Assembly (NCBI GenBank): GCA_030280995.1 | Contig: JASXTE010000001.1 | Span: 7,267,001-7,331,000 of the forward strand | Length of the DNA: 64,000 bases | Source: Hemileia vastatrix | Taxonomy: Eukaryota > Basidiomycota > Pucciniomycetes > Pucciniales > Zaghouaniaceae | Direction: 5' to 3' | In this document: positions 55,968-58,612 of the stretch, piece after piece | Layout of the letters: each line of letters starts with the position of its first letter | Position numbering within the stretch: the stretch's first letter is position 1 | The notes under the pieces: model-generated | Seen by the model: the letters and a program-made list of their open reading frames with translations, nothing else | What the model was told of the DNA's origin: nothing | The model's database searches: none | Program-made: the position numbers and the translations under genes

Positions 55968-57292
55968 TCAGTGGTTGTCCAATAGTTGTTTCTTCAAGGT
56001 TTTATCAAAGTCATTTAAAGGTCCATGGAGGGCAAAGGCTTTCAGCATGTTTGAACACATGGTGCTGAGGTGTTGTTTCATGTCTCCATAATCCAGGGTC
56101 AAAGAAGTTTTTAGAGGTTGGCCAACTCCAATAGTAGATTCAAGAGGAGGGGTTCCAACTAGAAAAGAAGAATTGGATCAGTAATTATTTTTGTTGAAGA
56201 AATTGGATGAATTAATGTGGTACTTACAGATTGAAAGCTCATCAAATTTGTAAGTGGCCGGAATTTGGACTTCTGAAGATTTTGGAATGGTGATAGTAGG
56301 TGGATCAATCAGGGAAAGATATGGATTCTCTTGGTCTTCCTCTGAAAGTTTTTGAGAAGGTGAACTAGGAGGCTGATGTTCCTGGGGCCTAGTTGGAGCA
56401 GCAGGCCTGTTGTTGCTGTTGTAAATATTTCTGCTTGATTCAGTTGGATGAGGTGCTGGTGATGGAGTACAAGGGTTGTTATAAGATGGGGCAGGAGAGG
56501 GTGATCTGGAAGCGGATTGATCTCTTCTGGATGGAGCTCTTGAAGGAATGGAATTGTTAGAAGAATAGTTGGCTGGCAGAGGAGAGGTGTAGTTTTGTTA
56601 CCTTAACTGGGGGAAAAGTTGTTGTTTTGGTGCAGTGTTGGGTGTTCTGGTGTCTTCCTGGGGTCCTCTGGCAGGTCTACTAGAAGTTTGGGAAATTTTG
56701 GACTTTTTGTACCTTAGAAAGGTTGGCTGCATTTCTCTGGGAGTAGTGGGAGGGGGCTGCGTGGAGTTGTTTTTGTTGATTGGAGGAATTTGGCTGTTTT
56801 CTGGTTGTTTTTGGAAGTTTTGAGCCTGATTTTCACTGTCTAGTGAGGCGGGCGGGCCGCCTGGATGCGGTCTAGCAGCCTAGGAGCTGATTTTGAAGCT
56901 TTTGGAGCTAAATTAGATGAGATAAAAGCTGTTTCTTGGGGAGTTAAAGCAGGCCTTTTGGGGAGAGTTCTGGAAACTGAGTTCCAGGATCTTCTGGATG
57001 GTGCTGAGGATAAAGATGAAGAGGATGGACCAAGCTCTGGGGATCTGGTAGGGGATCTGGAGAGGTATTTATGAGAAGTTGAAGGAGGAGGAATAGGGTA
57101 GTTGGCATCTCTGTCACATTTCTTCTTCTTGGAGTAGCAAGAATCACAGGCCCTGTTGTAGAATTTGGCTTCAGGAGTTGGAAGAGTGAATGTGCAAGGT
57201 CTGCACATGTGGATGCACTGTTTGCAGGCATAGTCCTTGGGAGACGTGAAGCAAGGAAGATTGGAGGGGTCAAAATCAGGGGATCCAGCCAT
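55968..57292 (-). pseudogene. Antisense accessory gene 1: Cys-cluster, Ser/Pro-rich protein (one frameshift, one stop)
   Basis: Minus-strand gene from MAGSPDFDPS at 57292. Residues 23-59 form C-X2-C-X6-C-X15-C-X2-C-X6-C, ending ACDSCYSKKKKCDRD, which looks like the basic half of a fungal Zn2Cys6 cluster but placed second. Ser/Pro-rich sequence follows. The frame stops at 56840 and continues in another frame from about 56850, so a one-base change in the GC-rich stretch GGCGGCCCGCCCGCC is likely. A TAA interrupts at 56598-56600. A typical intron (56227-56159, GTAAGT...TTTTCTAG) joins ELSI to FGTPPLES in phase, and the last exon ends KKQLLDNH at 55968. Possibly a DNA- or RNA-binding regulator; function unknown. 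Confidence 0.6.
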
Positions 57293-57445
57293 GATCTGTG
57301 GTGAGAAAAGATGATGGAAAGAGATAAGAAGGAGATTTTTGTCAGTGATGGGTAGATGATGAAGTGAAAGTGGAAGCTCAGCAGGTTGGCTGTAGGTGTA
57401 TTATGCATGAAATTGGCTGGGTCTATTTTATGCAAAATTCTGTGC

Positions 57446-57930
57446 AGTCCATCAAGACTTTAAACTGAAATCCAGTATCTGGTAGTCCTCCAAGACTTTA
57501 AACTGGCTGGTTTCAAGGAGTTTCAAGAATAGGCCATCAAGACTTTAAACTGAACACTGTGTTAGTCCCCCAAGACTTTAAACTGAGGATTGTTTGATTG
57601 TGTAGTCCCCCAAGACTATAAACTGAGGAATGGGTTTTTGTTGTTGGAATGGGTTTGAAAGATTGGAAGAGGGTATCCACAGGGGGAGCCTCTGAATTTA
57701 GCAAAGGCAAGTTTGGGGGTAATTGATGGGCTGGCAGCTCTATTCAAAATTACCCCAGAATGTTAGTTTTTTTCTCTGTGTCTTAATGTGGTTGATCTCT
57801 GGTTCTGGGTTTATGATTTAGGTTTTTGAGTCCCCCAAGAATTTAAACTGTGGGTTTTTGAGTCCACCAAGACTATAAAATGAGGATGGTCCCCCAAGAC
57901 TTAAAACTGAGGGTTGTTTGTGGTTACATC
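57446..57930. repeat. Array of short repeats around AAGACTTTAAACTG
   Basis: At least eight copies of a CCCCCAAGACTTTAAACTGAGG-like motif (for example near 57451, 57490, 57537, 57569, 57609, 57835, 57868 and 57893) at irregular spacing, with diverged copies near 54735 and 54995. They lie between the two antisense genes, where the promoter of gene 1 should be. They could be regulatory sites or remnants of tandem expansion. Confidence 0.6.
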
Positions 57931-57970
57931 CTATAGAGGGTGTGGTCAATTCTTCTTTTCTGAATCAAGC

Positions 57971-58612
57971 TCAAGTACTAGTGGAATTACAGAGGGAATC
58001 AAGAGATGAAATGAAGTGTTCAGAATTAGCCTTGAACTGGTGAATGAGGTGTCTTCTTTTCTCAATGTCATGTGGATCTCTAGCAGGAGTGGATTGTAAG
58101 TAGTTTAGCAGAAAGTGTTTCTGTTGAGATGTGTGTTGTTGGAGCTTGGCCTTAATTGCGGGCAAGTGGTTTGGTGTTGGTGGCTCAATGGATCCTACAT
58201 TGTTATCATCACTGTCAGAAGATGGAGGAACTGAGAAGTCATCAGTTTTATAAAGTGGAAGGAAGAAATGGAAGCTTTTATCATCAGATGGACCAGGGAT
58301 GGTGGAACTTGTTGTTTTAGTGGTTTTGGCACTCTTCTGAGAAGGGTGTAGCTTTTTGATTAATCTGGGAATCAAGATGGATGGCCCAGATCTTTTGTTG
58401 CTGGTAGAAGATGGACCAGGTTGAGGTGGAGGTGAAGCTGTTGCAGAAGATAATGGACCAGGTCTGTAGCAGGTCTTCTTTCTGGAGTGGAAGACATCAC
58501 AGGACGTTCTGTATGGATGGACAGGAGGTGTGATGGTGCAGATTAGACTATTGTCAATGCAGTATTGGCAAGGACCCATTTCAGAGGCAGATTTTGGAAG
58601 AAGGTTGAACAT
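57971..58612 (-). CDS. Antisense accessory gene 2: Cys-cluster, Ser/Pro-rich protein
   Basis: An intact 213-codon frame on the minus strand, ATG at 58612, only about 50 bp from LTR-C. Residues 15-48 give C-X2-C-X6-C-X12-C-X2-F-X6-C (PCQYCIDNSLIC, then SCDVFHSRKKTCYR), aligning with the cluster of accessory gene 1; one Cys is Phe. A Ser/Pro-rich linker and basic stretch (LIKKLHPSQK) follow. The C-terminus is helical-looking (LLNYLQSTPARDPHDIEK) and recurs in the decayed antisense gene near 41180. No RT, protease or nuclease motif. Its 5' end facing the LTR suggests transcription from an antisense activity of LTR-C. Family not recognised. Confidence 0.65.
   Translation of the reverse strand: MFNLLPKSASEMGPCQYCIDNSLICTITPPVHPYRTSCDVFHSRKKTCYRPGPLSSATASPPPQPGPSSTSNKRSGPSILIPRLIKKLHPSQKSAKTTKTTSSTIPGPSDDKSFHFFLPLYKTDDFSVPPSSDSDDNNVGSIEPPTPNHLPAIKAKLQQHTSQQKHFLLNYLQSTPARDPHDIEKRRHLIHQFKANSEHFISSLDSLCNSTST

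Follow-up and report, generated by a model that had tools for sequence, protein, structure and literature searches.

The inner of two nested retroelements in a 64,000-nucleotide stretch of the Hemileia vastatrix genome (contig JASXTE010000001.1, positions 7267001-7331000; hereafter the window) is a long terminal repeat (LTR) retrotransposon of Ty3 order, at 46820-59736, and it carries two genes on the antisense strand between pol and its 3' LTR. Our results show that both genes, gene 1 (open reading frame 1, ORF1, with an intron) and gene 2 (ORF2), belong to the element. As far as sequence comparison can tell, they form a real and abundant accessory set with one clearly constrained antisense gene. 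A regulatory role of the antisense proteins is the reading that best fits the data: we give a probability of about one half to the proposal that the element encodes a zinc-cluster-like regulator, which would bind an array of 22-bp motifs lying in the same element and so control its own transcription, gene 1 being broken in the window copy.

Antisense genes carried by the element

A first reading of this DNA, made from the sequence only, had assigned the 4.2 kb between pol and the 3' LTR to the inner element, and the recurrence of the antisense genes with LTRs and integrase (IN) across copies bears this out. We searched 747,610,610 bases in 791 contigs with ORF1 and scored the best 150 of 11,873 first-look candidates (all E < 1e-79); for ORF2 and for exon 2 of gene 1, the best 150 of 15,164 and the best 150 of 5,244 were scored (all E < 1e-30). 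Thirty loci picked by ORF1 were fetched (labelled from L001, the window; the frames of L021 and L022 are identical), and in these ORF2 lay upstream in 29 and an LTR edge was present in 26. Twenty regions of 6.6 kb, 15 of them new and five overlapping earlier loci, were also taken from the ORF1 list and hence represent elements that retain ORF1; all 20 held ORF1, exon 2 and ORF2, 18 held IN and 19 the 3' LTR. The antisense genes thus stand at the same place between pol and 3' LTR in nearly all copies sampled through ORF1, and other copies with these LTRs, which the first reading had proposed to look for, do exist.

The intron proposed for one of the antisense genes was recovered with its GT-AG ends and recurs across copies. 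It is visible in 29 of the 30 loci, the remaining one (L009) having unrelated sequence at that spot, and in an alignment of 42 copies, from which L009, L018, L022 and the five overlapping regions were omitted, a search that allowed a few errors finds it in every copy, with GT at the donor in 40 and GC in two, and AG at the acceptor in all 42. Its length in that alignment is 67-69 nt, at least once 102, and no intron-less copy was seen among the 42. Judging from its orientation, the intron would not be spliced out of the genomic RNA and could therefore survive reverse transcription. The window frame of gene 1, if unspliced, would stop about 16 codons past the donor.

Gene 1 had been taken to end at 55968 and to be intact, and on both points the window copy proved misleading. 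Position 55968 is an early stop of this copy; a recurrent exon 2 stop stands at codon 137 in 26 of the 42 copies (as the first stop in 16, as the second in 10), so that the gene extends to 55743. The window copy also lacks a 19-bp segment, and its frame breaks off at codon 150; other sampled loci have longer frames. We suspect that absence of the segment represents recurrent loss at a GC-rich stretch. Its use as a lineage marker was rejected, both states being interspersed on the tree of the 42 copies. A GC-rich stretch of about 24 bp that retains CpGs is found in the LTR (window 47280 and 59118, plus strand), and a by-eye comparison places such a stretch inside ORF1 as well, at the 19-bp indel and inverted relative to the one in the LTR (seen in L005, L011 and further loci of the long form).

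Gene 2 is open in the window, with another residue at one of its six Cys positions; the same position varies in other copies, and many have Cys there and show the pattern CX2CX6CX12CX2CX6C. The frame of ORF2 is often open upstream of its Met, toward or into the LTR, measuring 275 codons from stop to stop in many of the best 150 matches, and some copies have further Met codons upstream, where the true start may lie.

Zinc-cluster-like domains and codon-level constraint

The two minus-strand proteins had been described as sharing one N-terminal Cys cluster. We find related six-Cys domains of the form CX2CX6CX12-14CX2CX6C in both: the window ORF1 matches the ORF2 of L032 (BLASTP E 8e-6, 41% identity over 39 residues), and the ORF1 and ORF2 alignments match each other with an hhalign probability of 87%. 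The six-Cys pattern has zero matches in the six frames of window positions 1-41590, and since the domains also match each other, the likeness of the two genes is not a matter of chance. Open frames were found in 36 ORF1 and 19 ORF2 copies, of which 17 and 16 (window included) were given to Pfam; Zn_clus (PF00172) was matched by all 17 ORF1 members and by 15 of the 16 ORF2 members. The six Cys follow the CX2CX6C-loop-CX2CX6C layout of PF00172 with a loop of 12-14 residues, the canonical zinc-cluster loop being 5-12, and the start of the Pfam profile aligns to residues 47-62 of the window protein and 31-45 of the protein from a second family described below. An apparent homology of ORF2 to DUF6714 was rejected (three of 16 members, best E 0.0011, window member below the cut-off).

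Searches for relatives outside the element family were negative. The PDB sequence search with ORF1 gave no match at E up to 10 and the NCBIfam search gave none. A protein search with ORF1 (150 residues) and with a four-sequence long-form alignment found no homologue at E up to 1; this negative applies to ORF1 and is limited by a method that depends on words of 5 residues in common. As a control for this search, an IN piece gave 162 matches, of which the 120 listed include Austropuccinia psidii (42-58% identity) and Puccinia striiformis (53 and 56%). The ORF1 negative consequently carries some weight, because the database contains rust pol relatives. Contig scans with the ORF1 alignment against viral contigs, and with the IN alignment against viral and genome contigs, found no match. 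Two IN relatives carry the names of bacteria, Xanthomonas sp. A2111 (81%) and Streptomyces fumigatiscleroticus (53%), and may be rust DNA that entered bacterial assemblies.

The copies fall into two subfamilies, A (24 copies, with L016, L020 and L029 dropped) and B (15 copies), between which we counted fixed nonsynonymous (N) and synonymous (S) changes. Exon 2, which played no part in the picking of loci, gave N9:S20, a ratio of 0.12 (wrong frames 1.20 and 3.60; binomial P 5.5e-8). ORF1 codons 1-141 gave N7:S20, a ratio of 0.11 (wrong frames 2.11 and 1.28; binomial P 5.1e-8), and the choice of loci by ORF1 score biases this figure and not that of exon 2. The singleton changes of exon 2 come close to neutrality (198 N : 62 S), as dead copies should. 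In the 6.6-kb regions (without L048, L049 and L050; four A copies, the window among them, and 14 B copies) the ratio is 0.19 for the ORF1 N-terminus and 0.17 for exon 2, with 0.02 for IN as a positive control (N1:S11) and 0.75-0.93 for the LTR as a neutral one. These ratios clearly point to protein-level constraint on the two ends of ORF1, the N-terminus and exon 2, in the replicating lineage.

The 22-bp arrays and the proposed function

The motif AGTCCNYYAAGACTTTAAACTG, 22 bp long, forms same-strand arrays in the element and in a second family, and this array common to two families is new. By a count with a 13-bp search string that allowed up to 2 mismatches, 20 regions have 7-21 units each and the window has 10. 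Most units lie in the spacer upstream of gene 1, where their number varies from about 5 to 19, and most regions have two more after pol. Every unit is element-sense in orientation in all 30 of the first loci, and over 229 units conservation reaches 89-98% in the left arm AGTCC, which lies outside the search string, but does not extend into the flanks. Exact matches number 24,080 genome-wide (11,967 and 12,113 on the two strands), against none for the reversed pattern and about 0.002 expected by chance. The motif contains an AGTC/GACT inverted repeat with a 6-bp spacer, in which two positions take C or T and one is unconstrained; such a repeat may suit a dimer.

Some further observations concern the motif. 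The array of L050 has grown to 21 units, about twice the usual number. By eye, a stretch of the linker between RNase H and IN at window 52930 resembles the right part of the motif and seems doubled in the outer element at 60670-60730; a motif scan gave one hit there. In the LTRs an inverted repeat GTAGTC-N8-GACTAC (window 47700 and 59537 regions) resembles half of the motif, reversed, and is kept in 19 of 23 sequences examined, namely both inner LTRs, the outer LTR and the 20 fetched regions (16 of these positive, some holding a partial LTR). The idea that it is the same site as the 22-mer was dropped, because the spacing differs.

The second family (family C; L051 and L052) was found among the first 100 places of the motif search by choosing arrays with different spacing. 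Its IN is 80% identical to that of the window in protein and its pol about 75% in DNA, and the same 22-mer occurs 13-14 times with other spacing and flanks. L051 and L052 each have one antisense gene, with a plausible 87-nt intron, upstream of a conserved purine tract and the start of the LTR. The protein is 26% identical to window ORF2 residues 2-200 (E 1e-14, 61.6 bits, against 25.8 bits for the best of 500 shuffled queries), and its zinc cluster, which has a CDxCRxKKxKC half, scores 23.2 bits against Zn_clus, above the Pfam cut-off of 21; in the PDB the protein has its best sequence matches in PPR1 (E 0.011) and GAL4 (E 0.23), though both are weak. Among the best 150 of 8,729 family-C candidates, 145 are without a stop and all are 96-100% identical, so that many near-identical copies keep the antisense frame. 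In L051 no homologue of ORF1 was seen beyond the shared zinc domain, and with one antisense gene in this family the paired arrangement does not hold as a general feature. L053 and L054, fetched as possible further families, were rejected as such, both being decayed relatives of L051. In L053 another element interrupts before the gene region; in L054 (C2:608501-613500) minus frames hold repeated peptide-like units where the antisense gene would be.

Genes and array recur together in the sampled copies. We propose that gene 2 is transcribed from an antisense promoter in the 3' LTR, 48 bp from its start codon, and gene 1 probably from the array-holding spacer; the 22-bp units would be the sites bound by the zinc clusters, possibly in dimeric form, and binding would alter transcription in a way that keeps the element expressed or shields it from silencing. 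Least certain of all is the direction of the effect. We favour activation or anti-silencing over repression for two reasons: CpG is strongly depleted (observed/expected 0.00-0.29 by part of the element; window 16000-32000 has 0.59), pointing to a methylated or mutated target, and the layout is similar to that of the VANC proteins discussed below. Autorepression or copy-number control is possible. A more far-reaching and less probable version is that antisense-encoded Zn2Cys6 proteins with swapped halves bind the 22-bp arrays of their own elements and free them from silencing, as a VANC-like system that arose independently with a fungal transcription-factor domain and may have helped at least two families to spread through the coffee rust genome.

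Several observations weigh against an element-encoded regulator. The Zn_clus scores of the window proteins, 14.7 bits for ORF1 and 11 for ORF2, lie below the cut-off of 21, the basic Cys triplet is the second and not the first, unlike in PF00172, and the AlphaFold single-sequence model of the ORF1 N-terminus was uninformative, with a predicted local distance difference test (pLDDT) score of 48.8. The motif is without CGG triplets, which Gal4-type proteins usually bind. Besides the locus bias in ORF1 codons 1-141, constraint is mild in the middle of ORF1 (N20:S14, ratio 0.44, wrong frames 1.01 and 0.79; P 0.017) and weak in ORF2 (N10:S10, ratios 0.32 and 0.28 for two parts; P 0.0076), where codons 1-112 have a similar 0.40 in one wrong frame; in the 6.6-kb regions these codons gave 0.43 against 0.35 in a wrong frame. 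Neutral decay of the frames, named by the sequence-only reading as what would speak against the genes, is at odds with the constraint on gene 1; in ORF2 the counts are equal and one wrong frame gives a similar ratio. Within the subfamily (29 loci), dN/dS looks neutral for exon 2 (0.99), ORF2 (0.82) and the ORF1 middle (0.86), as expected if most copies are dead, and is 0.48 for ORF1 codons 1-141 (wrong frames 1.29 and 1.28), a value biased by locus choice; we rejected this ratio as a test. Net divergence between A and B is uneven, 0.031 in the spacer, 0.044 in ORF2 and 0.07-0.09 in ORF1, with two poorly aligned A regions raising some A values; it may reflect constraint or recombination between copies, and the latter may blur the N:S test. 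Truncated frames are frequent as well: in subfamily B, seven of 10 listed ORF2 frames have merely 138 codons. The 19-bp segment, whose absence loses the frame of gene 1, is present in 11 of 30 loci and absent from 19 (window included), in a sample tilted toward the short state because the search query itself was the short form, and it is absent from all 15 subfamily-B copies. Finally, L054 has a 22-bp array and no recognisable zinc ORF.

Other explanations have to be weighed against regulation by the antisense proteins. Zinc-binding nucleic-acid proteins are usual in gag, and the lack of a chromodomain in the last IN piece makes another tether conceivable, so the proteins might act in replication or integration, as nucleic-acid chaperones or as chromatin tethers of the pre-integration complex. 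This is unlikely in our view, as antisense expression of a structural component would be unusual and the conserved iterated motif would be left unexplained. It is similarly improbable that the array is some other cis element (a site for a host factor, a promoter or terminator, or a product of recombination or slippage) to which the antisense proteins are unrelated: the array of L054 and the range of unit numbers in the spacer, such as slippage would give, are in its favour, but the 22-bp core is kept while the flanks are not, the spacing is irregular, and the families concerned have pol sequences 75% identical. The convergent orientation of the genes also allows the antisense transcript itself to be the active product, forming double-stranded RNA with the genomic RNA and thereby limiting or tuning transposition, with the frames incidental. 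Retroelements are known to give antisense transcripts without coding function, and PMC7264820 considers this possibility, but it is unlikely here given the codon constraint in the ORF1 N-terminus and exon 2, which are joined by splicing alone, the Cys residues kept across families and the 145 stop-free frames among the best 150 matches of family C. That the genes drift as passengers, having been captured from the host or being a foreign transposon nested in the element, as the common truncated frames and the lack of an ORF1 homologue in two protein searches might suggest, is highly improbable, since they occupy the same position in nearly all linked copies sampled and in two families, and since the N:S ratios are 0.11 and 0.12.

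Element structure and comparison with known systems

The landmarks by which the element had been delimited, matched 1072-bp LTRs with TG...CA ends, a putative primer-binding site (PBS), a polypurine tract and an ACGG duplication, were all found, and the LTRs are 95.4% identical (Table 1). The domain order of the window copy, protease, reverse transcriptase, RNase H and IN, is that of Ty3. Its pol is broken by stops, and Pfam gave RVT_1 at 0.0036 (below the cut-off), RT_RNaseH at 2.7e-7, Integrase_H2C2 at 2.1e-10 and the integrase rve at 1.9e-7, just below the cut-off; protease, RVT_1 and rve fall below in this decayed copy, whereas RVT_1, RNaseH and H2C2 exceed it in L051.

Table 1. Features of the inner element, in window positions
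Feature	Position	Strand	Remarks
Left target-site duplication ACGG	46820..46823	.	matches right copy
5' LTR	46824..47895	+	1072 bp, TG...CA, 95.4% identical to 3' LTR
PBS-like stretch	47900..47916	+	begins 4 nt past 5' LTR
gag-protease frame	48341..50008	+	Asp_protease_2 E 1.2e-3, below cut-off
pol pieces (reverse transcriptase, RNase H, integrase)	51859..54480	+	frames interrupted in window copy
Two 22-bp motif units after pol	54728..55010 (54728-54749, 54989-55010)	+	
Gene 1 (ORF1) exon 2	55743..56158	-	137 codons in many copies; early stop 55968 here
Gene 1 intron	56159..56227	-	69 nt, GTAAGT...CTAG, GT-AG
Gene 1 (ORF1) exon 1	56228..57292	-	start 57292; frame broken after codon 150 here (56840)
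Gene 1 six-Cys domain	57116..57226	-	CX2CX6CX14CX2CX6C; 17/17 members match Zn_clus
Array of eight 22-bp motif units upstream of gene 1	57446..57909	+	
Gene 2 (ORF2)	57971..58612	-	213 codons, start 48 bp from 3' LTR
Gene 2 six-Cys domain	58469..58570	-	one Cys position differs here; 15/16 members match Zn_clus
Polypurine tract	58651..58660	+	directly 5' of 3' LTR; second family has tract too
3' LTR	58661..59732	+	1072 bp, 95.4% identical to 5' LTR
Right target-site duplication ACGG	59733..59736	.	matches left copy

No chromodomain, the mark of chromoviruses, was found by Pfam in the last IN piece (53515-54477); an element at 7220-9271 has one. The inner element sits in a related outer element, whose LTR is 83% identical to the inner 3' LTR, and a long antisense frame lies opposite gag in outer and inner element alike (42589-43230 and 47879-48442, minus strand). 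The Ty3 element with the chromodomain occupies 6307-14694 on the minus strand and is without the six-Cys pattern; identical 121-codon frames at both its ends suggest near-identical LTRs. A piece of a more distant Ty3 integrase, about 55% identical, lies at 38531-39280 (plus strand). The Race I assembly of H. vastatrix is described as 794 scaffolds and 747,980,110 bp, with 81.66% masked as transposable elements (PMC10652848).

In their domain the antisense proteins resemble fungal Zn2Cys6 proteins of the Gal4/PPR1 type (PF00172), with the layout CX2CX6C...CX2CX6C and a second-family homologue that passes the Pfam cut-off; they differ in the second position of the basic triplet, the loop of 12-14 residues and the scores of the window proteins below that cut-off. 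VANDAL elements are DNA transposons. As described in PMC5735166, the anti-silencing protein VANC of Arabidopsis VANDAL is, as here, a protein encoded by a transposable element whose own family carries short same-orientation motif arrays in its non-coding parts, and these arrays evolve by gain and loss of repeats. For VANC, binding and hypomethylation were shown by experiment (PMC5735166), whereas binding by the H. vastatrix proteins is proposed. The H. vastatrix element too has a same-orientation motif array in its non-coding regions. In the animal retrovirus human T-cell leukaemia virus type 1 (HTLV-1), the antisense gene is HBZ, which encodes a bZIP protein. That gene likewise lies before the 3' LTR, and the account in PMC7264820 places the HTLV antisense promoter inside the 3' LTR; a promoter at this place in our element is proposed from the 48-bp distance.

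Plant elements are known to have antisense ORFs in the interval from pol to the 3' LTR, for which a regulatory role has been suggested (PMC11963269, PMC7264820). The plant Ty3 elements of the Retand lineage, as presented in PMC11963269, have a similarly long region between pol and 3' LTR (2.9-6.6 kb, compared with 4.2 kb here), antisense ORFs with predicted DNA binding and tandem repeats in the same region; they differ in their plant hosts and in a TRP28 domain instead of a zinc cluster, and TRP28 had no match in Pfam searches of the window, ORF1, ORF2 and family-C proteins. The sequence-only reading knew of no such genes in fungi with a paired zinc-cluster layout. Taken as a statement on antisense genes in fungi at large, this is too strong, as brtn of the Boty element of Botrytis cinerea is cited in PMC8365987 as an additional antisense gene in a fungal LTR retrotransposon and placed between pol and 3' LTR in PMC7264820; the paired layout is not contradicted in the literature found, and our searches, with subscription papers largely outside their scope, found no fungal LTR element reported to have antisense genes of the zinc-cluster kind. 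Boty differs in having an ascomycete host and one named gene, and its likeness is drawn from the description in the citing papers.

Reports of antisense genes in LTR retrotransposons go back to the 1990s, and there is no consensus on what these genes do (PMC7264820). The system described here is a variant of such antisense-gene LTR retrotransposons, themselves already known in fungi, in which the antisense protein has a recognisable fungal zinc-cluster domain and one frame is measurably constrained across a splice junction. The candidate target site occurs many times in the element itself and is common to families, so that one binding experiment can test function. If the regulatory proposal is true, it would help to explain how retroelements whose copies are CpG-depleted persist in a genome that consists of transposable elements to more than 80% (PMC10652848).

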